From Conchocele bisecta (Eukaryota; Mollusca; Bivalvia; Lucinida; Thyasiridae), in contig CM055279.1 in the NCBI GenBank assembly GCA_029237695.1, positions 2,076,975 through 2,140,974 of the forward strand: a stretch of 64,000 bases of DNA, in the 5' to 3' direction. Below the pieces are notes generated by a model, which saw only the letters and a program-made list of their open reading frames with translations, was not told where the DNA came from and did not search any database. Each line of letters begins with the position of its first letter. The first letter of the stretch is position 1. This document shows, piece after piece, positions 6,658 to 34,221 of this stretch. The position numbers were made by a program, and so were the translations under genes.

Positions 6658-6664
6658 AATTTGA

Positions 6665-7117: not shown

Positions 7118-7124
7118 GTCTCAT

Positions 7125-7768: not shown

Positions 7769-7770
7769 AT

Positions 7771-12600: not shown

Positions 12601-13499
12601 CCGGCATAATGAAATTGTTAGGGAACTCGTGCTGCGGTAAAATGATAGAGTCTCCTGAGGGGCACCTGAATACGACATATACGAAGGACGAGAAATGTGT
12701 GGACAAGGCATTAAGATCTGCATACTTCCACGATCTGGAGGAGATCGGCGATGCGTACGAGATATCTTCTAGAAAAGTTAATGCGGTTATGACTAGACCA
12801 TTCCATTGCGGGATAGCCGTGTACCAACTGGCCAAGCTGAGAATGTTGGAATTCTATTACGATTTCTTAGACAAGTATGTAGACAGAACAGATTTTGAAT
12901 TAATACAAATGGATACGGACAGTCTGTACATGGCAGTAAGCGCGAAACCTCCGCAAGAAAATGAGAAATACGGCAGTTTCGATAGTATGGTAAAACCTCA
13001 TCTGCGCGGTGAGTATGAGAAAGATAAGAAAAATTGGTTGGCGTGGGATAAATGGAGTGACCGAGAGCCCGGGCTTTTCAAGGTAGAATTTCACGAAGAT
13101 CGTGCCATTGCGCTATCGAGCAAGTGCTATTTTGTGGAGAAGTTGGTGACCGCCAATCTACCAATTCCAGAATTGGATGGTACTTCCGGGGATATAGATG
13201 AGAACGTCAATCTACCAATTCCCGAATTGGATGGCCGATTAAAACATTCCGCAAAATGATTATCTGCCAGACAGAACACGCTAACCTGGAATCGGTATAA
13301 GAACGCGCTGAACTGGGGGCGAGAGGATGTCCATTCGGGAATTGAGGGTGGGAAAGATATGTGTGAAAACCGCGGATTCCGAATGCGGGACGTCGCGATG
13401 AAAACATATACGCAGAGGAAGTTGGGGCTATCGGCCTATTACGATAAAAGAAGAATCCTTCCAGACGGTATACACACGGAACCTCTTTATCATAATTAA
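9622..13499 (+). pseudogene. POLB: Protein-primed DNA polymerase B, segment P
   Basis: Replicates the element's DNA. Visible motifs in order: a C2H2-like finger (CYGCNQRF...HSLKRHALTC, about 10280-10350), an endonuclease-like VDGFCEETNTVYQFHGCYWHGC block, Exo I YDFEAY (11069), Exo II GFNSSRYDLNLIK (11390), Exo III YYNDLDVD (after a TGA at 11780), palm motif A DANALYLST (12150), motif B KLLGNSCCGK (12615) and motif C DTDS (12915). It is broken by frameshifts near 9870-9990, 10940 and 12120, stops at 11780 and 11957, and a TGA at 13257. Just after VEK, two palindromic 27-bp units add about 22 codons relative to copy C. Natural end HTEPLYHN at 13499. Confidence 0.85.
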
Positions 13500-14206
13500 T
13501 AATTTTAAGAAAATTAAAATCTAAAACAAATAAAGGGGGGTTATTTTGCAAAAATTAGCAAAATTTATAAAAATTAATAATCCAATATAATAATCTAATT
13601 AATGTTATAATTTCATTAAAATTAATTATAAATTGATTATTAATTATTGGATTATAACAGGATTTTTGGTACCCCGAGGGCGACCAACTGGTCTCTTCGG
13701 ACCGCTAAACCCCAATTCTCCTGCCCCAATAGCGGATTGGATCGGATCTCCGAATATCCAATCTGCTCCACCAATCAGCTCGGGAGCAGATTGGACAATT
13801 GGGTGGCTCTTTTGCCCACATATTGGTAAGCCGGCGAGATCCTATATGATATTTCCTTTTAACCCATGAGGAAGGCACATTTCCCCGAGCCCCGGCAATA
13901 TCTGACAGAGCGGTGCGATCAAGAACAGATTTAGGCATTTTCCGTTCCGTTCTCCAATATTCCAACACTTTCAATTCGCGAATTGAGGGTGTATATACTT
14001 ACGCAGATATTAATGTTCAATATGTATTCATAATTAATTTTAAGAAAATTATAAAATATCACAATTCCCTCCAATTATCCAACCCCAATCCATCAACACA
14101 CCAATCACGATTGGATAAATTGGCTGGTATTGGAGCTGCTCCCGAGCGGGGTGGTTTTGGAACTTTCCCCCCCCCCCCACTGTTATCCCAATAATCGATA
14201 AGGTGA
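13500..14206. other. Non-coding junction dense in short palindromes
   Basis: Lies between the end of segment P and the truncated start of copy B. It contains at least five mini-palindromes: 13726-13740, 13758-13794 (arms CCAATCTGCTCC/GGGAGCAGATTGG), 13971-13986 (TCAATTCGCGAATTGA), 14101-14114 (CCAATCACGATTGG), and AT-type copies near 13500-13515 and 14030-14050. No gene is recognisable. A poly-C run sits at about 14168. Confidence 0.6.
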
Positions 14207-14310
14207 AATGCACTCAGGCTACGCATCGACTGGTTAGCAAGGAATTACGTGCTCGCAAGCATTATCGTTTAGTAATAATTCAAATCAGAAAGTCAGTTAT
14301 AAAGATATAA
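14207..14310 (+). pseudogene. 3' fragment of zinc protein, copy B
   Basis: Matches the C-terminal about 33 codons of the zinc-binding protein (THRLVSKELRARKHYRLVI), ending at TAA 14308-14310. The zinc-ligand part is missing, so copy B begins inside this gene; the junction at about 14205 marks truncation of its left end. Confidence 0.65.
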
Positions 14311-14470
14311 CCGATATTTTCTCAGTGTTAAACAGCGTTCCTATCCGACCGCTGTTTGCCTATACAGTTTAACAGAGCGCTCAGCGAATGAACACGCCCG
14401 ATATTTTATCAACGTTAAACAGCGTTCCTATCCGATCGCTGCTTGCCTATAAAGTTTAACAGAGCGGTCG
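14311..14470. repeat. Subterminal direct repeats, 87-bp period
   Basis: Two units start CCGATATTTT at 14311 and 14398, each containing TTAAACAGCGTTCCTATCCG and GTTTAACAGAGCG. The motif GCGTTCCTATCCGACCGCT recurs in the equivalent place of segment D (39663-39864). Position near the element end suggests a replication or packaging signal, but this is only inferred. Confidence 0.6.
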
Positions 14471-14649
14471 GGCGGAACACCATTGATAATATATCGGCCA
14501 CCCCAAACAAAATAATATGCTGGGCATGTCTAACTGGACCACCTTTTTTAATCTATCAGCAGACGACAATGTTCCAATTACACGGTTATGTGTATATATA
14601 GCCGAGTGTATTTCGCCTTATCGAGACCACGGTGTGTATTGATTTAATT

Positions 14650-15429
14650 TTAAAACACACACACAACCACCAAGACAGTCGCCGGTGTATTTGTTTTGTG
14701 TATTGGTGTATGCAACACGCTATTGAGGCGATCTATATATATGAGATAGGTGACTGCGGCACGCGGTAACACGATTACTTCCTGGTACGGACAGTTTGCG
14801 GTTATAGAAATGCATGGTGGCCAGTGGGTGTTGTAACTTCCCACCCCCCCCCCCCCCAATTTATCTCTCAGTTGTGACTTAAATTTATCCCAATCAGTAT
14901 TCTCAATCTTGGGAAGGGTGGCGCGCGCCTTAGTTCTAATAGTATTTTTTAAATCCTCATATCGAGACATCTCCTCCACCACCAACTCAAATTCAGCGTC
15001 TGATATATTGTTATCGGCCAACGCTTTGGACACGATAACGTCGATGCTATTTTTCTTAGACCTTGCGAGAACCGATATTCTGTCGTGCTTTCTACTTTTA
15101 TTTTCGAATTTTCTTCCCACTACTCTAAACGCCATACATAACAACCCAGCCACAGCGGCTACCCCGCTCAAACCCCCTGCAATGGGAATTTCCACGACTG
15201 TAGACAATAATGCGGCTGTTCCGGCCCCACCCATTATAGAAATTGCTGCCAGCACGGCGTTCGCCCCCTCCACTATGTTTGCCACGCGTCTATAAGTTTT
15301 AGCATTCATTTTCCTTGTTTCCGCCTCTCGTTTTAGAATATCCTGCATCTCTACGATATTTTCCAACCTAAAATCTGAACTTCTTTCGCCAAAAACTTTT
15401 AGCGTGCTCGGAAGTGCTAATTCGTTCAT
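14650..15429 (-). CDS. Glycine-rich membrane-region protein, copy B
   Basis: Open frame of 259 codons from the ATG at 15427-15429. Order: N-terminal Leu/Ser segment, NIVEMQDILKREAETRKMNAK helix, a 40-residue small-residue hydrophobic stretch (ANAVLAAISIMGGAGTAALL...), a basic patch, the family signature KHDRISVLARSKKNSIDVIV, and a charged helix ending near DKFKSQLRDKL. The family normally ends soon after this. Here a 15-base poly-C tract (about 14843-14857) carries the frame on into an unrelated tail, so the natural C-terminus is probably lost. The start codon overlaps the fibre stop (ATGA). Confidence 0.6.
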   Translation of the reverse strand: MNELALPSTLKVFGERSSDFRLENIVEMQDILKREAETRKMNAKTYRRVANIVEGANAVLAAISIMGGAGTAALLSTVVEIPIAGGLSGVAAVAGLLCMAFRVVGRKFENKSRKHDRISVLARSKKNSIDVIVSKALADNNISDAEFELVVEEMSRYEDLKNTIRTKARATLPKIENTDWDKFKSQLRDKLGGGGVGSYNTHWPPCISITANCPYQEVIVLPRAAVTYLIYIDRLNSVLHTPIHKTNTPATVLVVVCVF

Positions 15430-15972
15430 ATATCGAGTTCAATCAACAATGTCACAGCAGTGGAATAACTCGCTGGGTCAGCGATTTTCGAAACAAAGTT
15501 AATAACACTACCTTCGAAAAGTCTAATTGGATTGTCACCGGCGAACGAAACCATCCCTGACCTCTGTCCAGCGAGTTTTGTGACTCCAATCGCCCGTTCT
15601 TCCCCATCCAGTACGAGATTTACGGTGACCACGGCCACAGAATTACCCTTAAAATTAATCGAGCAGACCGCCATTCGGAGAAGCGTACCTGGAGCTGTCA
15701 TGACGTATCCCCCATATCTATTGCTCGCGTTGGCGCCGAATGAATATTCATAGGCTTCCTTTTCCAACGCCCCCCTCTCCTCAGCCCAAACTGTGATGAT
15801 GGGTGTTCTGCGGTGTAATAACTTAAACTGCTCTACAGATGTGTCCGCCAATGCGGCAAGCTCCTCGATAGCGGTATGGGCCTCAACACGAACCTTTTCA
15901 GAGGTCTCCTCAAGTGCTTTTTGAGCGTCTCTACGAACTCGGTTTAGTTTATCGGAAACTTCCATAAACTCT
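15426..15972 (-). pseudogene. Fibre-like protein, C-terminal domain only, copy B
   Basis: Retains a short coiled-coil end and the complete globular domain: ITVWAEERGALEKEAYEYSF, GGYVMTAPGTLLRMAVCSI, DGEERAIGVTKLAG and SVINFVSK...LLIELDI. This beta-rich head with N-terminal coiled coil resembles trimeric fibre or tail-spike tips. The start and the whole repeat stalk are deleted; at about 15965 it is joined to the middle of the penton-like gene. Confidence 0.65.
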
Positions 15973-16392
15973 GTATAGATCCAGAGGCACCTCTCCAACA
16001 AATTTTTGGCCCCGAGGGGAAACAATCTTTTTAAGTGGTCGGCTGAAACCGAGGCGAATGCCTAATGGATCTGACATAGTTATCACAGCGCATTCGGGGG
16101 TAGTTAATGTTGCAAGTCCGGTAGCCTTCGATACTGTGAGGTTGGCTTCGTCGCCAAGCTCTGTGGAAACAAAGTCTGTGAGCTGTCTTGCTCCCCACAA
16201 CCCGTGCGGCAGCTTTACACTTAATGGTTGTCCATCCTTCACATAGTAAAACCCTTCGCGCTCCCCCAAGTTTCGCCACCCAATCGTGAAGGTGATTGAT
16301 ATGAGGCGTACCCGGCGTTTTCCGCAGCAGTTGCCGATTGACTTCTGAAGTTCACAACTCTCTTTTTGAACATTAGTGATAGTAGCAAACAT
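15973..16392 (-). pseudogene. Penton-like protein, N-terminal half, copy B
   Basis: From MFATITNVQKESCEL (start 16392) through SITFTIGWRNLG, FYYVKDGQ, LPHGLWGARQL and LGIRLGFSRPL, then cut at about 15975 where fibre sequence begins. One deletion therefore removed the penton C-terminus and the fibre N-terminus together. The start lies 17 bp from the divergent structural gene. Confidence 0.65.
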
Positions 16393-16409
16393 AATAAACT
16401 CCGATTAAA

Positions 16410-17833
16410 ATGTCGTTGGATACCAAGGCATTTAGCTTCAATTCAAAGGCAAAGTACGATGGGGGAGGTGTGTACTACTTAACGGTAGGAATCCATTACT
16501 TAATTAGAAAGCTAATAAACCCAACAATAAGAGTAAACGAAGACACAAGATTTTATACAACTTTTTCAAACATGTTTGATAATTATAGGCAGCCCAAAAT
16601 TACTACCCAAGAAACCATAAACGCGTGGAAAGCAACACCGATGCAATTTTGGCAGAACCAGTTAAATTTTGCTGTGTGGTGTGCTACAACCGGGTGTGGT
16701 GTCTCTTACATAAACCACATGGAGCATAATGAGAGCGCTTTCTGCGAAAGTGTTTATACTTTTCACGTCTACTACACGATCAGGAGAATCATACAAGAGA
16801 TGAGCGTGAAACAACCCTAAGAGGATAAATAGGACCCTCTATGCAGCCCGTACGACCACAAAGCCTACGAAAGACTGTGTAACAAATTTCAGATTTCTAA
16901 AAATACCGACTGAAAACAGAAAACAGTTACTAAAAGTGGTGGGTTAGGCGATGCATTTGTAAACAACAATATCGTAACCCGCAATGGGGGAAATTTCGAT
17001 TCAAACACTATGACATTCGGCGCGTATTCAGATCCACCAACTGACTGTAATTTTTCCGGGTGTAAATACATTCCATCTGAAGCTGTCATAATCCATATCG
17101 ACAACATAGAACAAAACGAACACGTTAGGATCGGCTGGGGGACTTTCATTTTGGATAGGGGGAAGGGGTTCACCAGGGCTGGAGTTACCCGCCTCAACGA
17201 ATCCATTCGCACATACGTCTGGGCCATCCTCGGCGCACAGGCGCAAGCGCGCAGTTCAATAATAGGAGACGGGACGGCGTTTGACGCGCAAAAACAGTTC
17301 TTGGCAAATGTCGAGGACGCAATAAACAAACCGGTGGACCTCCCGGATGCGATCAAGCGGTATCAAGACGTTTTGCAGAATGCCCACACCCCAGTAAACT
17401 ATGTATTTGGAATAGGTCTTTATATGGCGCCGAGCAATATGATACTACAAGACGACCCGGTTGACGTTTCGTAATCGCCACCGCCAATAAAAAAATCGGC
17501 CACAATGGAAAAGTGAACACGGGTATCATCAAGCTCCTCCCCAACACGGTCGGGAGCGGAGGTGTAAGTGGAACCTATTACATAAAACCGCAAAAACCCA
17601 CCCCAGTACGAAGCACACCATCAAGTTCCACCAGTTACCCCAATTCACGAATTGGAACTGGAGCTGTATCATCAAATACCACCGCTGTTCACCGAATTCA
17701 CGAATTGGAAGCACCAGAAAGTTCACCCAATTCACGAATTGGAACTGGAGCGGGAACTACAACCCACGAGGAGGAGAAATTAGCGCTCGTCGTCGCCCTC
17801 GTGGCGATCGGACTATTCGCGCTTTGGTTTTAG
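16410..17833 (+). pseudogene. Tail-anchored structural protein, copy B
   Basis: Begins MSLDTKAFSFNSKAKY. The ATPMQFWQNQLNFAVWCAT block is intact. Three in-frame stops follow within about 100 bp (16818, 16830, 16911), each explained by a C-to-T or G-to-A change of Gln or Trp codons. The frame continues to DDPVD, where a small deletion shifts it; 17513-17833 encodes the linker and tail. The linker holds three palindromes (17640-17655, 17693-17708, 17727-17742) read as PNSRIGTG or IHELEA. The tail LALVVALVAIGLFALWF is one membrane helix at the extreme C-terminus. Confidence 0.7.
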
Positions 17834-19138: not shown

Positions 19139-19143
19139 TGAAA

Positions 19144-20437: not shown

Positions 20438-21057
20438 ATCAAAAGATTTAAATAAAAATAAAGTTTGTGATGCCCACTCTGCCATAATATGTGGGCAGAC
20501 AGGGTGCGGCGGAAAAACGGTTTTCATCCTCGATTTGCTCGAGGGGTCCTATCGCCATATCTTTCGACACACTGTGTCCCACTGTGCGGCACAACGATAC
20601 TTATCAGCGGCGCCCGTGGATATGGACCGACCCTGAGGTATACGTTATCGACCCCGGTGATAGGCTTCACGATTGGCTGCGCGGCTTCTGCCAAAGATTC
20701 CAGGGCGAGCCCACCCTATACGTGATTGACGACTGCTCGGCCAAGGCGGCGATGACCAAAAAGGAGGACATGCTCTCCGAACTCGCATTTTCTGGCCGGC
20801 ATGCTGGGCAAAGCGTATGGATCTCCACTCAGAAGTAGAACGCCGTCCTCAAGGATCTGCGCGAGCAAACGAAATGGGTCGCCCTCTTTCACAGCAAGGA
20901 CCGAGACTCATTCGATGACTGTCTTCGAGAGAACGACGTTATCCCAACGCGCGAGGAGCGCCTGGAGGTTCGACAGATGCTTTCGGAAATTAAGCACGCC
21001 AAACTTCTGTTAAAGACTGATCAACCCACAAATTACGAAGTAATAAGTATTTGCTGA
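20409..21057 (+). pseudogene. ATP: Genome-packaging ATPase, copy B
   Basis: Packaging ATPase of the FtsK/HerA-like (A32-type) group. The Walker A loop carries an extra Gly (GQTGCGGKT) caused by a 3-bp insertion. A frameshift near 20570 precedes NDTYQRRPWIW; a TAC-to-TAG stop sits at about 20838. Walker B (LYVIDDC) and the ISTQ sensor are present. The start ATG lies inside the end of the capsid gene in another frame, as in copy C. Confidence 0.8.
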
Positions 21058-21145
21058 GCAATGCTTAACAATGCTTAGCACATACTTAACAATGCTTAAC
21101 AATGCTGAGCAAATGCTTAACAATGCTGAGCAATTGTTAAGCATC
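21058..21145. repeat. Degenerate TTAACAATGC microrepeat
   Basis: About seven imperfect copies of (A)TGCTTAACA / TGCTGAGCA between the ATPase and the next gene. A related array occupies the same place in copy C (30745-30900), so the position is old but the repeat content differs. Confidence 0.6.
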
Positions 21146-21268
21146 TGTTGCTCCGCTGCGAGCTTTGTTGCGAGCATAACGGTGATCATAAGTATCGGAT
21201 GGTGCGCTTGGCAATATATTAAACTTATGAGGCTAGTCAGAATAGTACTAATTATTAAAAATAAAATA

Positions 21269-21939
21269 ATGAACTGCGACGAACTTCTCGATCAGCTAAT
21301 GGAAGAGACAGTCGTGTCGACTGCCGACACGACTGGACCTGTTGGAACGACTGCCGACACGACATATTTCCTAAAAGATGGCACGGCTACCGATACGGTA
21401 TCTTTCCTGAAAGAAAATGAAAACGCGACGCGACGCTAGCGGCTAGCTGCGCTGGTTGCTGGGGGACAATCGGAGCAGTATCTCGGTAGGCGTCTCTCAG
21501 TTTGTCAGGTGGACAAGATGTCAGATGCGGAGATCGATAACATGTATGCGCGATACGAATCTAGGTTAGGTGCGGAGATGACGAAAACTCTTGGATCGGC
21601 GGCTATTCATCTGTACGCTACCGCTGTTAGTACACTTCTCCCTATACCAAACACCGCGGGGTTGATTGGCGATCTAGAGACTGACCCTTTTGTAGGACAC
21701 ACTCTTAGAACAGTCTGCTGCTCAATTTATCACAAGTTTGGAATGTACTTAGCTCCGCTGACAACCGCGTTGACCACGGCTAAGCACTGTCAATTTGGAC
21801 ATATATGCCCACGAACTATAAGCTCAGAAAATGATGACACAAGACGCACCTGCGAGAGTGACGCAACAGCAATCCCCGATTGCACTTTTATCCCCGATTG
21901 TACTTCCAACCGCACCAGCTCAGGAGCGGCAATTGGGTG
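21269..21939 (+). pseudogene. MNCDELL acidic protein, copy B
   Basis: From ATG 21269 (MNCDELLDQLMEE) through a variable Thr/Asp linker, then a TAG (21438) where copy C has Glu, then VAGGQSEQYLGR, VDKMSDAEIDNMYARYESRLGAEMTKTLG, a hydrophobic LYATAVSTLLPIP helix and FVGHTLRTVCCSIYHKFGMYLAPLT. Unknown function; it is conserved in both B and C. Upstream in the same frame lies a short hydrophobic peptide (CSAASFVASITVIISIGW). The tail carries the mini-palindrome 21869-21883. Confidence 0.6.
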
Positions 21940-22199
21940 AACCCTCAACACTGTTGAAACCGATTATACGACATAAAAACCCAAAAAGACAGGCAGCTGG
22001 GCGGGCAGCGGCTACCACCCGAAATGCTAAACAAGATAAAATACTCGCCGAGCTTCGGCGGCCAAACAGTCGTTGTTTGTTCCATCACCAGCTCTTGAGC
22101 CCCAATCGAAATTGGTGTTTGGGGCAGCAATCTCCGATTGCACCCCCAACAGTGTTGGAGCAAAACATCCGAAGTTGGAGGTGCAATCGGGGAGTGCTG
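21831..22199 (+). pseudogene. NPKRQAAGRAAA small basic protein, copy B, truncated
   Basis: Starts MMTQDAPARVTQ, overlapping the previous gene in another frame. The recognisable core is HKNPKRQAAGRAAATTR followed by a Lys-rich helix. It contains three QQSPIA/LSPIVLP-type peptides produced by palindromes 21869-21883 and 22127-22141, plus 22102-22115 and 22146-22158. At about 22200 the frame runs without a break into a fragment of an unrelated element gene, so the natural membrane-anchor end is lost and copy B stops here. Confidence 0.6.
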
Positions 22200-22355
22200 C
22201 AACTATACAAGAGGCAAATACAAACATTAAGACTGATAATGCATATCGGATATAAAACTAAGGTGTATTATATAAAATTGTTAAAACCCAACGATTCGTT
22301 TACGAATATACATTTCTACGATATCGCTTATAAAGATATATTGAACAAAAAATAG
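22200..22355 (+). pseudogene. C-terminal fragment of unknown subterminal gene, copy C
   Basis: Encodes LYKRQIQTLRLIM...YIKLLKPNDSFTNIHFYDIAYKDI, nearly identical to the end of the protein at 39872-40243. The rest of the gene is missing. It marks the truncated left edge of copy C, joined to copy B in frame. Confidence 0.65.
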
Positions 22356-22375
22356 CAAGAGCCTCCACTCGTGCA

Positions 22376-23666: not shown

Positions 23667-23686
23667 GATTTTCAATATATTAGTAT

Positions 23687-25274
23687 TTACAAAATAAGTT
23701 CAATTAACAATGAGACAATAGTGGAAGAACTCTCTGGGTCACCGATTTTCGTAACAAAGTTAATAACACTACCTTTGGAAAGTCTAATTCGATCATAACC
23801 GGAGAACGAAACCACCGTCGAACTATCTCCAGCGATTTTAGTGACTCCAACCCCCCGTTCTTCCCCATCTACTACAATATTTATCGCGACCGCGCCCACA
23901 TGTTTACCACTAGCATTAACCGAGCAGACCGCCATTTGGATAACTTCACCTGCAGCTGTCATAGTGTATCCCCCACATTTATTACTCGCTTTGGCACCGA
24001 ACGAATATTCATAGTGCCCCTCAACCAATGGGCCCCGCTTCTCAGCCCAAACTGTTATGGCACGTTTTAGCGTTTTCATTGTTCGCACTATTCCGGCAAG
24101 CGCACTGTTTGCGTTATATGCCTCAGTACGAATCTTATAAGAGGCCTCCTCAAGAGCTTTGGTCGCGGCTATACGATCATGTTTCAGTTCCTCGGAAATT
24201 TCGGTTATCTTTTCGTCTAGTTCGGCAACCGCCGCTTCTCTGCTGAGAGAGTGCTTTAAGACCAACACCTCATAAGCCTCCATAAGGTCCGCCTGGTGGT
24301 TTTCTCGGACTTTATCAATATCCGACCTGCTCTCTTTTTGAAATTCGGTTATTGTTTTATCTAGTTCAGTAACCGCCGCTTCTCTGTTGAAAGAGTCCTC
24401 TGAGAGCAACATAATATCCGCATGGTGGTCTTCTCGGGCTTTCTCAATACCCGTTCGGACTCCATCAAGATCCAACCGGGTCTCTTTTTGAAATTCGGTT
24501 ATTTTTTTGTCTAGTTCAGTAAGTGCCGCTTCTCTGTTGAGAGATTCCTCTGAGCGCAACGCCCCATAAGCCTCCGCAATGGCCTCCTTGTGGTCTTCTC
24601 GGACCCCCTCAACTCCCGACCTGGTCTATTTCAGAAATTCGGTTATCTTTTCGTCTAGTTCGGTAAGTGTCGCTTCTTTACTGAGAGAGTCCTCTAAGCG
24701 CAACGCATCATAAGCCTCCGCAATGGCCTCCGCAAGGTTCGACTGGTGGTCTTCTCGGACTTTATCAATACCCGACCGGGTTTCTTTTCGAAATTTGGTT
24801 ATTTTTTTTTTTTTTATCTAGTTCGGCAACCGCCGCTTCTCTGATGAGAGAGTCCTCTGAGCGCAACACCTCATAGACCTCCGTAAGGTCCGCCTGGTGG
24901 TCTTCTCGGGCTTTCTCAATACCCGACGTGGCCTCTTTTCGAAATTTGGTTATTTTTTTACCTAGTTCGTTTAGTTCCGTTTCTCTGATGAGAGAGTCCT
25001 CTGAGCGCAACACCTTATCAGCCGCCTGATCTTTCTCAATATCCGTTCGGACTCCCTCAATTTGTGCAGTCGCCGTCATCACTTCTACTCTAACATCTCA
25101 TATACTCCTGTGAATCCCGTTTGTGACCTTCGATATAGTTTTATTGATCAGGGCCTTGGTTTTTCCAGTAGTTAAAAAGTCGCCCTCTGTCGGGATGAAT
25201 CCACCTTCTGCCGGTTCCAAATTCTTTGAATTTGTCACCCAATCGGAAGAACTACCTGGTCCGTATATACTCAT
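23687..25274 (-). pseudogene. Fibre-like coiled-coil protein, copy C
   Basis: Starts MSIYGPGSSSDW (ATG 25272-25274) with the EGGFIPTEGDFL motif. The stalk is built of 48-residue coiled-coil units (EDSLIREAAVAELDKKI, FRKEARSG-EKAREDHQADL), and the head is 24190-23687 with WAEKRGPLVEGHYEYSFGAK and INFVTK...SLLIELIL. Stops and shifts occur near 25095, 24790 (a T-run) and 24600-24640. The head with the last two units is one open frame of 290 codons. By analogy with fibres it could be the receptor-binding spike; that is inference. Confidence 0.7.
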
Positions 25275-25307
25275 AATAAAATTAATTATAATATTGGGCA
25301 CCTATAC

Positions 25308-25994: not shown

Positions 25995-26008
25995 AATAAT
26001 ATCTTTCA

Positions 26009-27446
26009 ATGGATACCAAAGCATTTAGCTTTAACTCTAATGCAAAGTACGCGGTCGGAGGTAAATACACGCAAAAAGACGTTGTTAACCACCTTGTACA
26101 CCCAACCGTAACGTTTAGACCGGACAGTGCTTTGTCACCAATTTCCCTTAACACGTTTGGAGAAATATAGGCTGCCCAAGATTAATACGATGGAGGCGGT
26201 AAACGGGTGGAAAGCAACACCGATGCAGCTTTGGCAGAACCAAATAAATTTCGCTGTATGGTGCGCAACAGCCGGGTGTGGAGTTTCACATAAAGACCAT
26301 CTGACATCCAAGAATGTCATGCTCCGAAGTGTCTACAACTTTCACGCGTATTATACTATTAGGAGGATTCGCAAATAACTAGGTATTTCACTACCTCAAG
26401 ACGACGCCTGGGATCCCATTTCCAACGCATACGACCGTATGGCATTTGAAAGACTGTGTAACGAATTTAACATTTCAAAAGACGCGGACTGGAGACAGAA
26501 AGCATTTCCTACCAGCACCGGCCTCGGGGACGTTCTCATTCGGGACCAGTCCGGGAATTGGACGCAGACTGATTTTAGACACGATCACTCCGGTGACCAC
26601 ATCGTCAGTCGGAACGTCGGGAATTTTGACACCGCGACGATGACATTCGGGCCGGAAGTGTCTGGAGGTCGGCACTGTGGCGTGTTTTCTTGCAAAATGT
26701 TACCTCCGAAACGGGCTCACGTCGATTACATACAGCAGGCTGCTGAGGTTCAGGACGCGTGGGGTACATTTATGTTAGATACGGGTCTAGGGTTCACGCA
26801 GGCCGGGGTTACTCGCGTCAACGACTCCATTCGCACGTACGTCTGGGCCATCCTCGGCGCACAGAAGCAAACTCGCAGTTCTATACTGGGCACGGGAACA
26901 GTGTTTGATGCACAAAAACAATTATTGGCACTTGTAGAGGACGCCATCTCAGCTAGGGTGGACCTGGAGAAGGCGATCCAGAATTATCAAGACGTTTTGC
27001 AGAATGCCAGCACCCCAGTAGACTATGTATTTGGAATAGGTCTTTATATGGCGCCGAGCAATATGATACTACGAGACGACCCGGTTGACGGTTACAATAA
27101 TCAGATCGTAATCGCCACGGCCAATCAGAAAATCGGCCACAACGGTAACGTGAACACGGATATGATCGAGTTCACCCAATCTGCGATTGGTGTTGATGTT
27201 GTAAATTCAATAAATTTGAAAAAGATTTCATAAAACCCCCAATTCACGAATTGGCCACCCCATCAAGTTCATTTGAACCCGTTGTTTCACCCACACCCCC
27301 AATTCACGAATTGAGTTCTCCCAATTCAATCGTCAACAGACCAATCGCGATTGGAGAAACACCAATCAATCGCAAATTCGTTGAAATTGGAATTAGGGCT
27401 CGTCGTCGCCCTCGTGGTGATAGGACCACTCGCGCTTTGGTTGTAG
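26009..27446 (+). pseudogene. Tail-anchored structural protein, copy C
   Basis: Starts MDTKAFSFNSNAKYAVGG. A frameshift near 26135 is followed by a stop; the ATPMQLWQNQINFAVWCAT block resumes in another frame; a GAA-to-TAA change sits at about 26376; the frame is then open from about 26439 to 27233 (DADWRQK, DRPVD-type blocks, AGVTRVNDSIRTYVWAILGAQ, FGIGLYMAPSNMILRDDP). The tail LGLVVALVVIGPLALWL survives at 27394-27446 in a different frame. The linker between holds four palindromes (27176-27190, 27239-27254, 27299-27314, 27341-27354), more than in B. Confidence 0.7.
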
Positions 27447-28726
27447 GAATCTCGATTGGTGGCAGAGAATAGTAGGAGACCGGCGATTGCCACGATTAAA
27501 GCCCAAATATTATTGGCGAGCCATCCGACCGTTTTTGATAATATAGATAACAAGTAAGAAACGATACTTCCGATCAGTCCAGGTAGTGCGGCAGCCGCCT
27601 TTCCAGCTAATTTAGCTAGAAGATTGGCGAGGGCTTTTAGTTGTTTTTTTACCCACTCATTGGCTCCACCGGATGGCGCGGGTGCTGGTGGTGGCGCGGG
27701 TGATGGCGCCGCACCACCAGTGAAAGCTAGAACTATGGTTGATATAGTCATGCCGACAGCTGCGAGGATGCTTGCTATCGTGACGCCCTGCTCTCTGAAC
27801 AGAGTGCGAAGACGCTCACCGAGTGTCGTGTCCTCGTGCAGAACCCTTGATATTGTTTCGCGGATCCGACTTATTTGTGTGCGGAGAGCCTCACGGTTAG
27901 CCGAGGCGGCTTCCAAGCGAGCTTCTCTTTCGTCCCGCAAAGACCGCAGTCGTTCGGCGATCCGCTCGGTAGATTCTCTATCATCACCGGCTTCCTCCAG
28001 TTTTCTTTCTTCTAGCGCGATATGTTCATCCAGCGCCGTGAGTTTGGAGAGGTTAACGACCAGTTCGCCCCGGACCGTTTGTAGAGCCACGGAGTTCGCG
28101 AAGAGGTAACGGTGGGTCATCGTTGAGTTGAGTATTTCCCCCAATTGCGATTGGACGCTGAACGTGGTCTCCATCGTGTTAATAACGTCGGTGGCTATTT
28201 GAGGGACCTCACTGAGCTCGACCGTTTCTATCGCGGTGGCCGTCTTCGCCATAGTTTCATCGGTAGACTGTAGGGCCTCTACAGCGCTGGCCGGTATAAT
28301 TGTTTTACCCCTCTTCCAATCCGTGAATCCTAGTTCGTTCCTTATGAATCGGCCACCGCCCGGGTTTACGGCAATGGTGCCCAGCGCTAGGGGTTTACCG
28401 GTCCTCGTGTTGACTATTGGGAGATTTGATGCTGCTTTTAGTCGCAATCTACCGTTCAGATCAAATTTGAACTTGGAGTAGTCGCGACCGACAGAGGGGA
28501 CCAGACCTTTTTCTGCCAAATTGTTGTAGTAGTCATTTACAGCTCCCTCGAGTAATTCCTGACTTTGACTAGTGGTAGCGCCACCTAATCCACCCAATTG
28601 TGATTGGATTGGAACTGGAGTCTCTATGGTGGGTGTCGCGAGGGAATCCTCGAAATTATCATCATCATCACCATCGAGGCAATCGTCTCTGCCGATTTTA
28701 TCCATGTTAATATCGTAATCATCCAT
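27326..28726 (-). CDS. Coiled-coil membrane protein, copy C
   Basis: Open frame of 466 codons, the best preserved of three. Acidic start (DGDDDDNFED), conserved YNNLAEKGLVPSVGRDYSKF, LPIVNTRTGKPLA, LGFTDWKRGKTIIP; a coiled coil about residues 220-300; TM helix TIASILAAVGMTISTIVLAF; linker APAPAPSGG; amphipathic KKQLKALANLLAKLAGKAAAALPG; a second hydrophobic pair WLANNIWALIVAIAGLLL. The last about 40 residues after LLLF differ from copies A and B (which end near FLKPKR) and read through the palindrome-filled linker of the opposite gene. Two palindromes give SQLG inserts at 28141 and 28594. A membrane-active structural protein is inferred. Confidence 0.7.
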   Translation of the reverse strand: MDDYDINMDKIGRDDCLDGDDDDNFEDSLATPTIETPVPIQSQLGGLGGATTSQSQELLEGAVNDYYNNLAEKGLVPSVGRDYSKFKFDLNGRLRLKAASNLPIVNTRTGKPLALGTIAVNPGGGRFIRNELGFTDWKRGKTIIPASAVEALQSTDETMAKTATAIETVELSEVPQIATDVINTMETTFSVQSQLGEILNSTMTHRYLFANSVALQTVRGELVVNLSKLTALDEHIALEERKLEEAGDDRESTERIAERLRSLRDEREARLEAASANREALRTQISRIRETISRVLHEDTTLGERLRTLFREQGVTIASILAAVGMTISTIVLAFTGGAAPSPAPPPAPAPSGGANEWVKKQLKALANLLAKLAGKAAAALPGLIGSIVSYLLSILSKTVGWLANNIWALIVAIAGLLLFSATNRDSYNQSASGPITTRATTSPNSNFNEFAIDWCFSNRDWSVDD

Positions 28727-28803
28727 TTTAATTTTTTCAAAAATTATTAATTATGTATTAAAGACAAAACCATACGGGTTTAATAGTTTCAATAAAATTA
28801 ATT

Positions 28804-30101
28804 ATGTCTTCGAGTCAATACGGTCGCAAACTCAATCCATACCGCAGACTACGTGAGCCCCTCGGGGCAAAAGGCGTGAGACAGAGTGTCGTTATTACGA
28901 ACAACCCATCGACGATCGACCAGAACCAGCAGCTCTTAGTCCGCTTCCCCAACCTCGGAACTCACGACGTCATTGTGCCGGGTACTGTTCGCCTCGCTTT
29001 CACTATTTCGCTAACGTCGACGGACGCGGACCGAACCGTCGTTCAGAACTGTCCGTGGGTCGCCATAGTCAAGAAGACTATGATAAAGATCTGGTAATGA
29101 GGTGATGTCGATCGACGACAGCGACGTCTACCATTGCTATCAGGACCTGTGGAAGACGGCACAGAGAGCGTGAAAACGCTGTCTATCAGGGTATTGACAC
29201 CAGCAAAAATAAGAACGTAACCAAACTTAGAATCGGGGCTGCTAACAAGGCAGATAACAACGCGAGTGACAACGCGGTCGCGAGCGCTTACGGCAACCGC
29301 TTCTACATCCCGCTCGACTTTGAGTTGCTGGAGAGCCACATGCCCTACTATCAGAGTGCTTTGGCTGACCGCCTCGAATACGAACTAACGTTCAACGACT
29401 ACGGCCGAGTTCTCATAACCACCGACATGTTATCGACGTATACGATCGACAATGTTTCGCTGGAGTACGACATGGTCACGCAGCCCGAACTCGCGCGATT
29501 GATCAGAACCCAGTACGCCGGGCGCGTTGCCATACTTTACGACCGAGTTCTTCGCCATCGCAAGATGACGAAAGACAAAGGCGACACATTGTGGAATATT
29601 AATGTCAACGTACCCGCCCGCTCGATGAAAGGTATACTGATGCTGTTTGAGGATGCTCGGTTCACGTTCGGTGCTAGAAAAAGCGACCAATTCTATAACC
29701 CCAAAATCACGAAGGTAGAGGTGACGATCGAGGGAGTCCCCAATCAACTCTACAGCGCGGGTCTTCGCGCGCACCAGCAGTGGGATGAAGTAAGAAAGCA
29801 GTTTGCTGCCGGCTCTAAGCGCTCTCCGGAGGTTGCAGCAGTTGCCAAAGACCTGCACCTCTCGGCCGTCTCCCTTGCGGAGTTCCTGAATACCAAATAC
29901 GCGTTATGGCTAGACATGCGAGCCAGCGACGATGACCAAATACACGGTAGCGGACGCCAAGTTGAGAACGCTAGTGAGGGTGTGACGATCCAGATAACCA
30001 AAGAGGCGGATGGAAATGGCGCATTGAACGTGTACTTATATATAATTACAGACGCACAACTCAACATCGAAGATGGCCGATACGTATCAGCGATCTACTG
30101 A
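28804..30101 (+). pseudogene. MCP: Major capsid protein, copy C
   Basis: Full length. Starts MSSSQYGRKLNPYRRLREPLG. A 2-bp loss at about 29090 (ATAAAGATCTGG against ATAAAGATTTCTGG) and an extra base near 29165 disrupt the N-terminal third. From 29325 the frame is open to DGRYVSAIY, holding ESHMPYYQSALADRLEYE, NINVNVPARSMKGILMLFE and KITKVEVTIEGVPNQLYS. This is the most complete double-jelly-roll-type capsid sequence in the window. The 3' end overlaps the ATPase by 29 bp. Confidence 0.85.
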
Positions 30102-30741
30102 TTTTAATAATTCTAAAGAATTAATTAGCAATCAATACCAATTCACGATTGGAGATGCTCACTCTGCCATAATATGTGGGCAGACAGGATGTGGAAAAAC
30201 GGTTTTCATCCTCGAGTTGCTCGAGGAGTCCTACCGCGATGCCTTTCGTCACATTGTGATCCTGTGTCCCACTGTGCGGCACAACGACACTTATCAGCGG
30301 CGCCCGTGGATATGGACAGTCCCTGAGGTATACGTTATTGACCCGGGTGATAGGCTTCACGATTGGTTGCGTGATTTATACCAAAGATTCCAGGGTGAGC
30401 CCACCCTATACGTGATTGACGACTGCTCGGCCAAGGCGGCGATGACCAAAACGAAGGACATGCTCTCCGAGCTCGCATTTTCTGGCCGCCATACGAGGCA
30501 AAGCGTATGGATCTCCACTCAAAAATACAACGCCGTCCTCAAGGATCTGCGCGAGCAAACGAAATGGGTCGCCCTCTTTCACTGCAAGGACCGAGACTCA
30601 TTCGATGACTGTCTTCGAGAGAATGACGTTATCCCAACGCGCGAGGAGCGCCTGGAGGTTCGACAGATGCTTTCGGAAACTAAGCACGCCAAGCTTTTGC
30701 TAAAGACTGATCAACCAACTGCTTACGAAGTTATCAATTAA
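30073..30741 (+). CDS. ATP: Genome-packaging ATPase, copy C
   Basis: Intact, 222 residues. Walker A GQTGCGKT at residues about 35-42, Walker B TLYVIDDC about 113-120, and the ISTQ polar motif about 150: the A32/FtsK-HerA-type motor that pumps DNA into the capsid in Polintons and related viruses. It starts inside the capsid gene in a different frame, implying coupled expression. Relative to copy B it has 7 more residues before DAHSAIICG; this stretch is made of a palindrome (30138-30152, read QFTIG) and a TTCTAAAGAA palindrome, a clear case of in-frame growth. Confidence 0.85.
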   Translation: MADTYQRSTDFNNSKELISNQYQFTIGDAHSAIICGQTGCGKTVFILELLEESYRDAFRHIVILCPTVRHNDTYQRRPWIWTVPEVYVIDPGDRLHDWLRDLYQRFQGEPTLYVIDDCSAKAAMTKTKDMLSELAFSGRHTRQSVWISTQKYNAVLKDLREQTKWVALFHCKDRDSFDDCLRENDVIPTREERLEVRQMLSETKHAKLLLKTDQPTAYEVIN

Positions 30742-30888
30742 TTTTATAATTAATTAGCAATTACTTAACGCTCGTTAGTAATTGCCGAGTAAATGCTTAA
30801 CAATTAATTTTAAGAAAATTAACAATTGCTGAACAATGCTGAACAAATGCTTAACAAATGTTGAACAAATGCTGAACAATGGTTAACA
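30742..30888. repeat. TTAACAAT/GCTGAACAA microrepeat with AT mini-palindrome
   Basis: Imperfect short repeats as in copy B (21058-21145), here interrupted at 30801-30824 by TTAATTTTAAGAAAATTAA. Confidence 0.55.
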
Positions 30889-31038
30889 ATGTTAACAATT
30901 TGGTGCTCCGCTGCGAGCTTTGTTGCGAGCATAATGGTGATCATAAGTATCGGGTGGTGTGCTTTTTTTATTTTTGTAATAAATAAATATGTTAAAGTGA
31001 TGAGACTTGTTAGAATAGTTAAATTAATTTTAAGAAAA

Positions 31039-31560
31039 ATGAACTGCGACGAACTTCTCGATCAGCTAATAGAAGAAACCTCAACTCCGACTGCCAACAT
31101 CCTGAAAGATAATGATCCGACAGAGCAATCGGAATCAACTCCAACGGCGGTTGGTATTGGGTTGAGTGCAACGACTCCGAATGAAAATGAAAATGCGGCG
31201 CGACGAGAGCGGCTAGCTGCGCTGGTTGCTGGGGGACAATCGGAGCATTATCTCGGTAGGCTTCTCTCAGTTTTTCAGGTGGATAAGATGTCAGATGCGG
31301 AGATCGATAAAATGTATACGCGATACGAATCTAGGTTAGGTGCGGAGATGACAAAAACTCTCGGATCGGCGGCTATTCATTTGTACGCAACCGCCGTTAG
31401 TATACTTCTTCCTATACCAAACACCACGGGGTTGATTGTCGATCTAGAGACTGACCCTTTTATAGGTCACACTCTTAGAACAGCCTGCTGCTCAATTTAT
31501 CACAAGTTTGGAATGTACTTAGCTCCGCTGACAACCGCGTTGACCACGGGTGAAAACTGA
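31039..31560 (+). CDS. MNCDELL acidic protein, copy C
   Basis: 173 residues from ATG 31039. MNCDELLDQLIEE, variable linker with mini-palindrome 31141-31154, RRERLAALVAGGQSEHYLG, VDKMSDAEIDKMYTRYESRLG, LYATAVSILLPIP hydrophobic helix, FIGHTLRTACCSIYHKFG. The frame is open upstream to 30889, adding a hydrophobic peptide (SAASFVASIMVIISIGWCA) that may be a separate small membrane protein; I favour the internal ATG because MNCDELL is conserved and follows an AT-type palindrome. Compared with B the stop (TGA 31558) seems premature by some residues. Unknown function. Confidence 0.6.
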   Translation: MNCDELLDQLIEETSTPTANILKDNDPTEQSESTPTAVGIGLSATTPNENENAARRERLAALVAGGQSEHYLGRLLSVFQVDKMSDAEIDKMYTRYESRLGAEMTKTLGSAAIHLYATAVSILLPIPNTTGLIVDLETDPFIGHTLRTACCSIYHKFGMYLAPLTTALTTGEN

Positions 31561-31612
31561 CAATTTGGACATATATGCCCACGAACTATAAGCCCTAATA
31601 TTAATATCATAA

Positions 31613-32017
31613 ATGATGACATAAGACACACCAGCAAGAGTGACGGAGTTGAACCCGATTGCTCCAACCCAATCGAACCCGAGTGTTACTCCGCCACTGG
31701 ATGACATACCGCATATAAAAAATCCCAAAAGACAGGCAGCTGGGCGGGCGGCGGCTGCCACCCGAAAAGATAAACAAGATAAAATACTCGCCGAGCTTCG
31801 AGAGGCTAAACAGTCGTTGCAATCGGGGACGGAGACAGCAAAACATCTGAAGACAGAGTTGAGTACAACAACACCCCCAATTCACGAATTGGAAGCACAC
31901 TCAACACCCAATACCAACTGCCGTTGGAGTTGGGCGAATCCGATTGAACCCAAATTCGTGAATTGGAGTTGGGTTGTTGGTGGTGGTCTGGCAGTTGTTG
32001 GTGCCCTGTGCGTGTGA
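31613..32017 (+). pseudogene. NPKRQAAGRAAA small basic protein, copy C
   Basis: Same start MMT as copy B, but codon 4 is TAA where B has CAA. The remainder is open: core HIKNPKRQAAGRAAAATRKDKQDKILAELREAK, a palindrome-rich linker (31877-31892 read PIHELEA; 31914-31927; 31950-31966) and a C-terminal membrane segment WVVGGGLAVVGALCV. A basic N-terminus with a tail anchor suggests a minor virion or DNA-associated protein; this is inference. Confidence 0.6.
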
Positions 32018-32141
32018 AAATACCCCTATTATCGAAAAAACAACCAGCCAGTGTACAGAAGAAAAGTTACGAAACACCAATCGCGATTGATGCGCCCCAT
32101 TTAAACATTGATCGCGACCCTTTTTATATGCAATAATTATA

Positions 32142-32375
32142 ATGGCTGAACAAGATGGTAAAATGTTAGTGAATGCGCTTTATCACGCCGTGGTGATATC
32201 GGGTTTCAGTATCGGGTATGCTCGACTATCAAAGATTGCCCTAGGAGGATCCGCTCCCAAATTGGACTTTACTGTGAGAGACGTAGGGCTCGCGACCTTA
32301 GATGTAGCGGCCGCAGTTTGGACCCGAGATTATCTAGTTAAAGCTGGAATTCTACCAGTTAATATATGGAAATAA
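32142..32375 (+). CDS. Small two-helix hydrophobic protein
   Basis: Intact 77 residues: MAEQDGKMLVNALYHAVVISGFSIGYARLSK, then LGGSAPKLDFTVRDVGLATLDVAAAVWTRDYLVKAGILP. Two moderately hydrophobic helices suggest a small membrane or capsid-lining protein. Its stop is immediately followed by the start of the next gene (TAAATG), an operon-like spacing. No named family known to me beyond recurrence in this element type. Confidence 0.65.
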   Translation: MAEQDGKMLVNALYHAVVISGFSIGYARLSKIALGGSAPKLDFTVRDVGLATLDVAAAVWTRDYLVKAGILPVNIWK

Positions 32376-32769
32376 ATGGCTTCAATCGCAGTAATAGTAG
32401 GTGGTGCGCTTGTAAACGCATTGGCGTTCAGCGGTAGCAACTTTATATTCTCTAAAATGAAAAGCTGTAGAACAACTCAATAGCGCAAAGGAAGCGTGGT
32501 CGAAAAAACTAACCGCCCATCTGGACTGGGTCAATGAAGAGCTTCGCCGCGAAAATCACGCCGCGCAAACTTTTCAGAACGTTGAAGAAGCCAACCGCGA
32601 GTACGCGCTGGCATATCCGCACAAAAGTCTCGCGCCGCTGGATCACGAGCCCCAACTTTCAGATTTCTATGTACCGTCAGAGGCCCAAAAAGACCGCGAG
32701 ATCGCGTTCATCGTCGTGGGAATGGGTGTGGTGGGTCTCGTCGGCTACTATATCCAATTTAGATTTTAA
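32376..32769 (+). pseudogene. MASIAVIVGGALVNALAFSG protein, frameshifted
   Basis: N-terminal hydrophobic segment (AVIVGGALVNALAFSG), then a one-base shift near 32460 produces a stop at 32481. The original frame continues as a charged helix (EAWSKKLTAHLDWVNEELRR), LSDFYVPSEAQKDREIAF and a C-terminal membrane helix (IAFIVVGMGVVGLVGYY), ending at 32769. The protein would have had membrane segments at both ends and about 130 residues. Unknown function. Confidence 0.6.
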
Positions 32770-32819
32770 ATTAATTAATTAATTTTTTTTTTTTTTTATA
32801 AAAATATATATATAGAACG

Positions 32820-33218
32820 ATGTTAGTTGACGAACTTTATTACGCTATGATCGATGTAGGCTACACTGCCCAAAAACATCGTATAGCTGGTGCAAAGAGT
32901 ATGATTCGTCTGGCCCGAGATTCTCTCGAGACGTGGCGCGAGGATGAAAAAGCGGCCACCCTTTTCGCAAAGCGGATGTTAGAATCCTCCACCAATACTG
33001 GGGATTGGACTCCTTCATCCAATCTCGATTGGGAGTTGAGGGATGAATTAGATTCCTCCGAGTTCCAGCTCAGGAGCGGGAACTTAACCAATCGCGATTG
33101 TACTTCCAACAAAGGTTTATTATTAACGACGCAGTTACCGGACGAACTGGCGAGGGCATGTTGGAGATTGTCCGATATATTAGAATACTTCGCATACGAT
33201 GAACACGCGCAAACTTGA
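32820..33218 (+). CDS. Unknown protein preceding integrase
   Basis: 132 residues: MLVDELYYAMIDVGYTAQKHRIAGAKSMIRLARDS, helical charged middle (TWREDEKAATLFAKRML), a palindrome-built linker (33019-33032 and 33088-33100) and LPDELARACWRLSDILEYF. It follows an A/T-rich stretch with TATA-like sequence (32790-32817). Its end overlaps the integrase start by 20 bp in another frame. I do not recognise the family. Confidence 0.55.
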   Translation: MLVDELYYAMIDVGYTAQKHRIAGAKSMIRLARDSLETWREDEKAATLFAKRMLESSTNTGDWTPSSNLDWELRDELDSSEFQLRSGNLTNRDCTSNKGLLLTTQLPDELARACWRLSDILEYFAYDEHAQT

Positions 33219-34221
33219 TACCAAACTAACGCGCAAGCTGTCGAATACATACTATAGCCCACGTGGCTACTGGAAGGGACTCGCGGCCATCAAGAACCTC
33301 GCGGCGGCGACCAAGGTTTCAGAAAACGCTGTCAAGGAATGGTTCAAGAATCAGGCCATCTGGCAGATCTATTTACCCGCGCCTCACAATATTCCGCGCC
33401 CGAAATTCGACGTGCCGGTGCCGAACCAAGTTCACCAAGCGGATCTCCTGTTTCTCCCTCACGATCACGTCGGTCACAAAACGTACAAGTACGCACTGAC
33501 AATCGTTGACGTAGCGAGTCGTTATAAGGGGGCTGAGCCGTTGGCCACTAAAGAGTCTAAGGAGGTGGCCGAGGCTCTTTCCCGAATATATAAGAGGAGT
33601 TCTCTCAAATGGCCGAATCTTCTCCAGGTCGATCCCGGCCGCGAGTTCATAGGCGCGGTCTCTCATCTATTGTCTAAGCACAAAGTTTCTATCAGACGCG
33701 GCCGCATCAACATCCACCGGGACCAGGGGATCGTGGAGCGGTTCAATCGAACCCTGGCTGAGAGACTGTTCGGACACCAATACGCTAAAGAACTTGTAGA
33801 CCCTCATTCGCGATCGACCGAGTGGGTGGCCAGACTGCCCGCCGTGGTCTCCGCACTGAACGGAGAGGTGACCAGATTGATAGGTAAGAAGCCCGTAGAT
33901 GCCATCAAGTCTAAAAAGGAGACGAGCAAGCCCTCTGCCGTCTCGCGCGGACGACCCGTTGGTTTAGAGGAGCAGCAATCGCCGATTGCGCTTCTATCGG
34001 ATGTTGACGTCCGGTACCTCTATCAACCGGGAGAGCTCGAAGGTGGTAGCCGCCGCGCGACTGATCCCGTGTGGTCTCTGAATGTATATCATCTGGATCG
34101 CTCTATTACCAAACCCGATGAGCCCATGCTCTATTATTTGGCTGATGGTCCATCTCGCGGTTTTGTTCGAGAAGAACTTCTTATGGTACCTTCTGACACC
34201 CAGCTGCCCCCGATTGCTTAA
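33199..34221 (+). CDS. INT: Retrovirus-like integrase (Polinton INT)
   Basis: Intact, 340 residues. An N-terminal helix-turn-helix-like region (YWKGLAAIKNLAAATKVSENAVKEWF) precedes the RNase H-fold core with the acidic triad D82 (QADLLFLP), D145 (QVDPGREF) and E180 (DQGIVERFN), giving D-x62-D-x34-E spacing typical of retroviral and Polinton integrases. The C-terminal RYLYQPGELEGGS...VWSLNVYHLDR part fits an SH3-like DNA-binding domain. Residues 259-267 (QQSPIALLS) are encoded by palindrome 33975-33989 and sit exactly between core and C-terminal domain. The stop overlaps the convergent polymerase stop. Catalyses element integration. Confidence 0.9.
   Translation: MNTRKLDTKLTRKLSNTYYSPRGYWKGLAAIKNLAAATKVSENAVKEWFKNQAIWQIYLPAPHNIPRPKFDVPVPNQVHQADLLFLPHDHVGHKTYKYALTIVDVASRYKGAEPLATKESKEVAEALSRIYKRSSLKWPNLLQVDPGREFIGAVSHLLSKHKVSIRRGRINIHRDQGIVERFNRTLAERLFGHQYAKELVDPHSRSTEWVARLPAVVSALNGEVTRLIGKKPVDAIKSKKETSKPSAVSRGRPVGLEEQQSPIALLSDVDVRYLYQPGELEGGSRRATDPVWSLNVYHLDRSITKPDEPMLYYLADGPSRGFVREELLMVPSDTQLPPIA

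Follow-up and report, generated by a model that had tools for sequence, protein, structure and literature searches.

What is a family of short palindromes doing in the genes of an endogenous virus, and how did it come to be there? The question is raised by a stretch of 64,000 nucleotides from the bivalve Conchocele bisecta (GenBank assembly GCA_029237695.1, contig CM055279.1; hereafter the window), which occupies positions 2076975-2140974 in the genome that we searched (1.89 Gb, 1196 contigs) and which holds several pieces of integrated Polinton elements. An earlier inspection of the letters alone – the sequence-only reading – had proposed that a proliferating mini-element of a eukaryotic DNA virus, comparable to the palindromic elements of Rickettsia, had invaded many viral genes and was tolerated in protein linkers. 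We find a striking family of palindromes, defined at the level of DNA, in a very large Polinton population.

That the palindromes are real is confirmed. All 26 of the coordinates listed in the sequence-only reading carry a palindrome or near-palindrome of 13-17 bp: four (17693, 27299, 32077 and 33088) are off by one outer base, that at 31950 contains an extra A, and that at 13971 is a perfect palindrome whose ends are T..A instead of C..G. Several distinct palindromes are involved, namely CCAAT..ATTGG, TCAACANTGTTGA, CCAACNNNNGTTGG, GCAATCNNCGATTGC and CAAATTCTTTGAATTTG. Assigned by open reading frame (ORF), the sites fall in seven genes – the polB ORF, the 17513/27140 linker gene, the 21831/31640 linker gene, the minus-strand ORF 27326-28726, ORF 30889-31560, ORF 32820-33218 and the integrase – and at four places counted as outside genes (13726, 13971, 14101 and 30138), much as had been stated. 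The site at 30138 lies within ORF 30073-30741, but upstream of the ATG that is common to the copies; that at 32077 lies downstream of the stop codon (32015-32017) in the window's copy. The sites and the two linker ORFs, in order of position (palindromes are given without strand; L-numbers denote Polinton loci sampled from the same genome), are as follows.

13161..13176, palindrome CCAATTCCAGAATTGG, in the C-terminal part of the polB ORF, read PIPELD
13215..13230, palindrome CCAATTCCCGAATTGG, polB ORF, read PIPELD; 54 bp from 13161, with similar flanks
13726..13740, palindrome CCAATAGCGGATTGG, no clear gene
13971..13986, perfect palindrome TCAATTCGCGAATTGA, no clear gene
14101..14114, palindrome CCAATCACGATTGG, no clear gene
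17513..17833, plus strand, linker ORF with a hydrophobic C-terminal segment and three palindromes in two frames (PNSRIG, RIHELE, PNSRIG)
17640..17655, palindrome CCAATTCACGAATTGG, codon offset 1
17693..17708, near-palindrome CGAATTCACGAATTGG, codon offset 0
17727..17742, palindrome CCAATTCACGAATTGG, codon offset 1
21869..21883, palindrome GCAATCCCCGATTGC, ORF 21831-22355, read QQSPIALL like the integrase insertion
22102..22115, palindrome CCAATCGAAATTGG, ORF 21831-22355
22127..22141, palindrome GCAATCTCCGATTGC, ORF 21831-22355, read QQSPIA
27176..27190, palindrome CCAATCTGCGATTGG; the sequence differs in other aligned copies, some of which carry TTCAACAGTGTTGA a few bases further on
27239..27254, palindrome CCAATTCACGAATTGG, in the homologue of the 17513 linker (27140-27420, putative frame)
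27299..27314, CCAATTCACGAATTGA; other copies have CCAATTCGTAAATTGG or CCAATTAGTAAATTGG
27341..27354, palindrome CCAATCGCGATTGG; some other copies have TCAACAATGTTGA
28141..28154, palindrome CCAATTGCGATTGG, minus-strand ORF 27326-28726; L022 and L027 are among the copies that lack it
28594..28607, palindrome CCAATTGTGATTGG; lacking in the 14.6-23 kb piece and L021, replaced by CCAATTCACGAATTGG in L024
30138..30152, palindrome CCAATTCACGATTGG, just upstream of the common ATG of the ATPase; lacking in the 14.6-23 kb piece, L021, L024 and L025
31141..31154, palindrome CCAACGGCGGTTGG, ORF 30889-31560; lacking in L012, L014, L019 and L020
31640..32017, plus strand, linker ORF with a hydrophobic segment; its palindromes are highly variable among copies
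31877..31892, palindrome CCAATTCACGAATTGG, read PIHELE; identical in 16 sampled copies
31914..31927, palindrome CCAACTGCCGTTGG; +12 bp relative to eight copies that lack it
31950..31966, near-palindrome CCAAATTCGTGAATTGG; seven copies have CCAATTCACGAATTGG here
32077..32089, CCAATCGCGATTG; an extra G in several copies, TCAACAATGTTGA within it in others, lacking in L024 and L025
33019..33032, palindrome CCAATCTCGATTGG, ORF 32820-33218
33088..33100, palindrome CCAATCGCGATTG, ORF 32820-33218
33975..33989, palindrome GCAATCGCCGATTGC, integrase; derived insertion of four residues by comparison with homologues

The expectation that such sequences would outnumber those in shuffled DNA was borne out. 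The motif CCAAT(N3-8)ATTGG occurs 17 times between 8001 and 41000 (33 kb), whereas 500 dinucleotide shuffles gave 0.28 on average and never more than 4; the remaining 22.9 kb examined (1-8000 and 41001-55900) contain none. Palindromes in general were rejected as the signal: those with arms of at least 6 are 1.4-3.8-fold over ten first-order simulations in 13 of the 16 4-kb bins (the other three are not raised), both inside and outside the virus. Because that excess extends beyond the virus, the special feature is the sequence family and not palindromes as such. A+T-rich palindromes such as TAATTTTAAGAAAATTA also recur between genes and near gene ends (13480-13540, 14020-14060, 30100-30140) and are possibly related to terminators or polyadenylation.

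A search of the whole genome, as the sequence-only reading had suggested, returned counts far above controls: 2960+2939 matches for CCAATTCNCGAATTGG (reversed control 1+0) and 6047 places for CCAATCGCGATTGG (control 1); for TTCAACANTGTTGAA there are 296 places (control 8). A Polinton ATPase marker, allowing up to two mismatches, gave 2956+2962 = 5,918 matches (control 0), which, set beside the palindrome counts, comes to roughly one 16-mer and one 14-mer for each Polinton copy. The tie to Polintons is close. Twenty 10-kb loci, picked by hand from 98 listed 16-mer sites on one contig (C1), all show homology to the window's Polintons along 46-99% of their length; of the 115 CCAAT(N2-8)ATTGG sites in them, 108 lie within the Polinton-aligned part. 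Among ten unselected 4-kb stretches the motif is missing from nine, one of which has 654 aligned bases; five sites stand in the tenth, L032, of which 3974 bases are Polinton. Three CCAATCGCGATTGG loci far from listed Polinton marks and one more 16-mer locus are likewise Polinton, making 24 of 24 loci examined for the motifs. As many as 71 of the 98 listed 16-mer sites are at most 3 kb from a listed ATPase marker (2.15 for random places); 22 are more than 10 kb away, and seven of these fall in five loci that are Polinton (L011, L012, L014, L017 and L020). A wider repeat around the 16-mer was rejected, given that copies have their gene context in common and separate sites only short flanks. Scans of IMG/VR viruses yielded 32 and 69 stretches with a single site each – near chance by estimate – and hence no enriched contig.

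The host element can be assigned to the Polintons (Mavericks) on the strength of an rve-type integrase, an A32-like ATPase and a weak PolB match (DNA_pol_B_2, 0.039). Two of these genes are:

30073..30741, plus strand, A32-like packaging ATPase (Pox_A32, 7.3e-10, above the cut-off)
33199..34221, plus strand, integrase ORF (rve PF00665, E 3.2e-07, 31.0 bits, which is 1.6 bits lower than the Pfam cut-off of 32.6 bits), with the in-frame palindromic insertion

Self-comparison resolves the window into three or four partly collinear Polinton pieces: a collinear pair (14.8-22.1 kb and 23.0-31.8 kb, the longest block with 81.7% identity), a piece at 2.0-7.1 kb and an inverted one at 36-40 kb. No capsid genes were recognised in these pieces.

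A critical issue is whether the palindromes belong to the proteins or to the DNA. When palindromes were mapped in the sampled copies on the 25.0-34.4 kb piece, positions were seen that are filled in some copies only; an absent match in this mapping may also be a mutated palindrome. Comparison of genes with and without the palindrome, another step advised at the outset, revealed nine sites with unambiguous filled and empty alleles (28141, 28594, 30138, 31141, 31815, 31860, 31914, 32077 and 33975). Seven of the nine (28141, 28594, 31815, 31860, 31914, 32077 and 33975) include one or more allele pairs with a length difference of exactly 12 bp; other steps are 9, 15, 18 and 21 bp, and frame-breaking lengths occur in some copies, for example at 28141 and 32077. 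The same place may hold different palindromes: at 32083 seven copies have CCAATCGCGATTGG and five TCAACAATGTTGA, at 28600 two CCAATTG variants and CCAATTCACGAATTGG are found across copies, and comparable variety exists at 27325-27351, 31147, 31647-31713 and 31914-31923. The core is open in three frames, as had been claimed. Within ORF 17513-17833 it is read as both PNSRIG and RIHELE, and CCAATTCACGAATTGG, tallied 22 times in the sampled copies of the 31640 gene, is divided 14/1/7 among frames 0/1/2 (these instances lie mostly at three homologous places, and one of the seven in frame 2 belongs to the frame-shifted copy L010). With three reading frames in use, protein-level conservation was rejected as the cause.

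The polarity of change is clearest in the integrase, where the palindrome at 33975 converts EEQ-RLP-SD to EEQ-QSPIALL-SD. This is the one site that could be compared across species, and all 120 of the aligned homologues (the best 120 of 4524) have a four-residue gap there, so that the palindrome is not a conserved protein sequence of distant relatives. Its absence from every one of the 120 indicates that the integrase insertion is derived, and it has multiplied with the virus: among 15 copies read at this site the window and L015 are filled and 13 have the short form, and the filled form has 410+411 = 821 matches genome-wide (up to three mismatches). As to its source, the insert's longest match is 5 bases within 150 bp and 6 within 500 bp, and with so little nearby a local snap-back template is unlikely at 33975. 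The sequences are consistent with a target CAGC-GG-CTT having gained a donor like CAGC-AATCCCCGATTGCA-CTT, although two bases differ and most empty copies have CAAC, not CAGC; CAGC-AATCCCCGATTGCA-CTT itself is present in a different gene, at 21869, where it too is read QQSPIALL. Among the same best 120 homologues the closest animal-named relative is from Elysia marginata (73% identical), and seven bear the names of bacterial metagenome-assembled genomes (Sedimenticola, Thiodiazotropha). Both are bivalve symbionts. For the 31640 gene a search gave 69 candidate homologues, none of them significant.

How, then, might palindromes pass from one site to another? The pattern looks more like site-to-site copying than the work of an ordinary transposon, and with moderate confidence we suggest that palindromic micro-insertions spread within and between Polinton genomes by ectopic, microhomology-guided templated copying. 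A palindrome in single-stranded DNA would fold into a 5-6 bp hairpin and could stall or break copying; protein-primed polymerases copy by strand displacement. The free end could then anneal through a few bases to a similar site in another location, copy a short tract and return, and within genes the survivors would mostly be in-frame products in linkers and termini. Neither a dedicated enzyme nor a fixed unit would be required.

Evidence for such copying came firstly from the flanks. We took 28 non-homologous sites, picked by hand (24 from the window and four from other copies, one allele being from L024; 13215, a near duplicate of 13161, was omitted). Identical right-hand 6-mers occur in 9 of the 378 site pairs and identical left-hand 6-mers in 6 of 378, against a null mean of 0.23, with none of 5000 trials reaching either value. 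By our own reading four of the nine right-hand pairs and two of the six left-hand pairs join different genes; among these, AACTGGAG links 17640 and 17727 to L024 at 28594, and AAGCAC links 17693 and the 27373 site to 31877. The empty allele at 28594 already has AACTGGAG, the right flank of the 17640 and 17727 palindromes, which is what microhomology-guided copying would need. Secondly, donors were sought for eight insertions in copies that lack them (the ninth event, 28594, was left out). An exact 15-base match lies elsewhere for three of the eight – one of them found only within 150 bp – and a match of at least 12 bases for four, whereas random stretches find 15-base matches in 0.6-1.2% of cases and 12-base matches in 1.9-3.9%. 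A telling case is ATCAGGTTCAACAGT, the insert at the 31860 site of L015, which in L009 sits in another gene 4.6 kb from an empty 31860 site.

Several observations weigh against templated copying. The flank-test sites were hand-picked, and local duplication can account for those pairs whose two members share a gene or ORF type, which are five of the nine right-hand and four of the six left-hand pairs. Four of the eight insertions have donor matches of only 8-10 bases, and the donor test is partly circular because the palindromes were already known to recur. Hairpin folding is weak: the six cores computed give -1.8 to -3.5 kcal/mol, and with five of them 7 to 19 of 200 shuffles fold at least equally well. 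Palindromes inside palindromes are seen in individual cases (31914, 32083, 27373 and L011 at 31860), but nesting is not in excess overall (27 of 149, where the null has a mean of 19.1 and a maximum of 33), and general insertion into palindrome centres was rejected for that reason. Tandem duplication also multiplies copies, as in L077, where six copies of CCAATTCACGAATTGG stand in one linker (342-523) at steps of 32-35 bp. Finally, the copying mechanism is one that we infer, its replication and repair steps being proposed. More tentatively still, the palindromes could be a self-spreading, enzyme-free DNA parasite of the virus: linker-sized sequences would propagate because hairpin-prone DNA draws templated copying into itself and into microhomologous sites, different palindromes would compete for the same slots, and new ones, such as AGTTCCTTCGGAACT, would arise in other Polinton lineages.

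A second Polinton lineage bears on what the palindromes might be for. Here another palindrome, AGTTCCTTCGGAACT, has 199+187 matches genome-wide (control 2+0); the homologous linker holds two copies of it in the 2-7 kb piece (4836-4850 and 4917-4931) and likewise in L075 and L076, and its complement, AGTTCCGAAGGAACT, lies twice in L074. Several of the genome-wide matches are paired, tens of bases apart. The presence of AGTTCCTTCGGAACT in the same linker suggests that this linker is prone to palindromes whatever their sequence, which fits either a mutational process in a tolerant region or some demand there. A demand of this kind would exist if the palindromes were kept by selection, whether as binding sites (for example of a dimeric DNA-binding protein or CCAAT-box factor) or as nucleic-acid signals (for example in packaging or RNA), with copying merely supplying them. 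The use of a different palindrome in the same linker by another lineage would suit this idea, as would the outer CCAAT/ATTGG arms, which, judged by eye, are kept better than the drifting centre. We nonetheless consider it unlikely, as positions and sequences vary among copies, given sites are missing in some, and several different cores would have to fill one role.

A mobile micro-element with CAA...TTG ends (a micro-MITE, after miniature inverted-repeat transposable elements), moved by a Polinton or host transposase, would account for the high copy number, the common outer CAA..TTG bases (again by eye), the derived in-frame insertion and the frequent 12-bp step. Such an element should have fixed terminal repeats and a target site duplication. 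Flanking direct repeats of at least 4 bases are found at none of the 28 sites at any of four possible boundaries, and of 3 bases at one, which leaves room for a 2-base target duplication; there are several different cores, at several sites a few bases appear by eye to be replaced, and flanks beyond the palindrome are shared between sites. We therefore rate a micro-MITE as rather improbable: with no duplication of 4 bases or more and with shared tracts running past the palindrome, templated copying fits better than a self-transposing element. Most doubtful is a purely local origin, in which snap-back template switching (known to form hairpins; PMC8794818) makes each palindrome in place and tandem duplication and descent multiply it across thousands of Polinton copies, for although the L077 array and the neighbouring 13161 and 13215 sites would suit it, identical 14-16-mers occupy non-homologous sites of different genes and the 33975 insert lacks a nearby template. 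Of the original proposal, which neither of its two refuting conditions overturned, there thus survives a DNA-level family that is present in several Polinton genes, uses three frames, often sits at gene ends and in linkers, varies among copies and is derived in the integrase; a single mini-element with a defined unit is not supported, given the several palindromes, the different ones at one place, the lack of flanking duplication and the tracts shared past the palindrome.

Other repeats accompany these Polintons. Tandem repeats of 144 bp stand in opposite orientation in two of the pieces (24205-25033 and 37139-38341), a 106-bp repeat, about 90% identical, lies at or near possible Polinton ends (2068-2172, 14210-14315 and 40741-40846), and tandem repeats of about 10-11 bp (CAATGCTTAA, AACAAATGCTG) occupy corresponding places of two pieces (21052-21140 and 30792-30890). 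Next to the Polintons lies a long satellite array (55995-63849) with a 74-bp unit and a strong GC skew.

How does this family compare with palindromes known to enter genes? Rickettsia palindromic elements are described as 105-146 bp long with terminal inverted repeats, lying between genes and fused in frame into protein genes, where they are apparently tolerated (PMC2229807). In the features given there, the Polinton palindromes are alike in being palindromic repeats that lie between genes and in frame within them, apparently tolerated; the integrase of the window and L015 has just such an in-frame insertion in a conserved gene, lacking in its orthologues. They differ in size (13-17 bp, against about 105-146 bp), in having no fixed unit that we could see, in using three frames, in placing several cores at the same places and in belonging to a eukaryotic DNA virus lineage. 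The likeness to Rickettsia drawn by the sequence-only reading holds for behaviour in genes and fails for the unit. The GC clusters of yeast mitochondria (in var1 and others) are depicted as short, palindromic, polymorphic in-frame insertions with fast-changing loops, subject to merging, shuffling and gene conversion, GC-rich and with terminal repeats regarded as target duplications (PMC8811140). The Polinton palindromes resemble them, on that description, in being short, in frame and polymorphic; different palindromes at one site and nested cases recall merging and shuffling, but nesting shows no overall excess. Unlike them, they are CAA..TTG palindromes with A+T and CCAAT..ATTGG cores, without a flanking repeat that we could find, in nuclear Polintons integrated on large contigs. 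Failing on size, ends or composition, they are a member of neither class: they work like Rickettsia palindromic elements or yeast GC clusters, but at a smaller size, with no fixed ends and as part of a eukaryotic DNA virus lineage.

Two further parallels are partial. In nematomorph mitochondria inverted repeats of up to 284 bp, nearly all perfect, are reported to be gained and lost in coding genes, possibly maintained as parasites by conversion (PMC6649704). Gain and loss within coding genes is common to both, as far as that report describes it, whereas the Polinton palindromes are short and draw on a small set of sequences that are found again thousands of times. Template-switch hairpins are attributed to a replication error that writes a short inverted copy when the complementary or nascent strand is briefly copied (PMC8794818); a short inverted copy is the common feature, but the best templates in Polintons are other palindrome sites. 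Among the Polinton papers listed, as far as titles and abstract openings of open-licence PMC text indicate, we found no account of such palindromes.

If our reading is right, a eukaryotic DNA virus lineage would join the short list of genomes in which palindromes invade protein genes. It would also offer a natural experiment within one genome, in which 5,918 Polinton-marker matches bring filled and empty alleles side by side – the 410+411 filled integrase sites being an example. Dating of insertions on a tree of these copies could decide by what route short palindromes spread in the absence of a transposase, which the mitochondrial work, as reported, likewise leaves open (PMC6649704).

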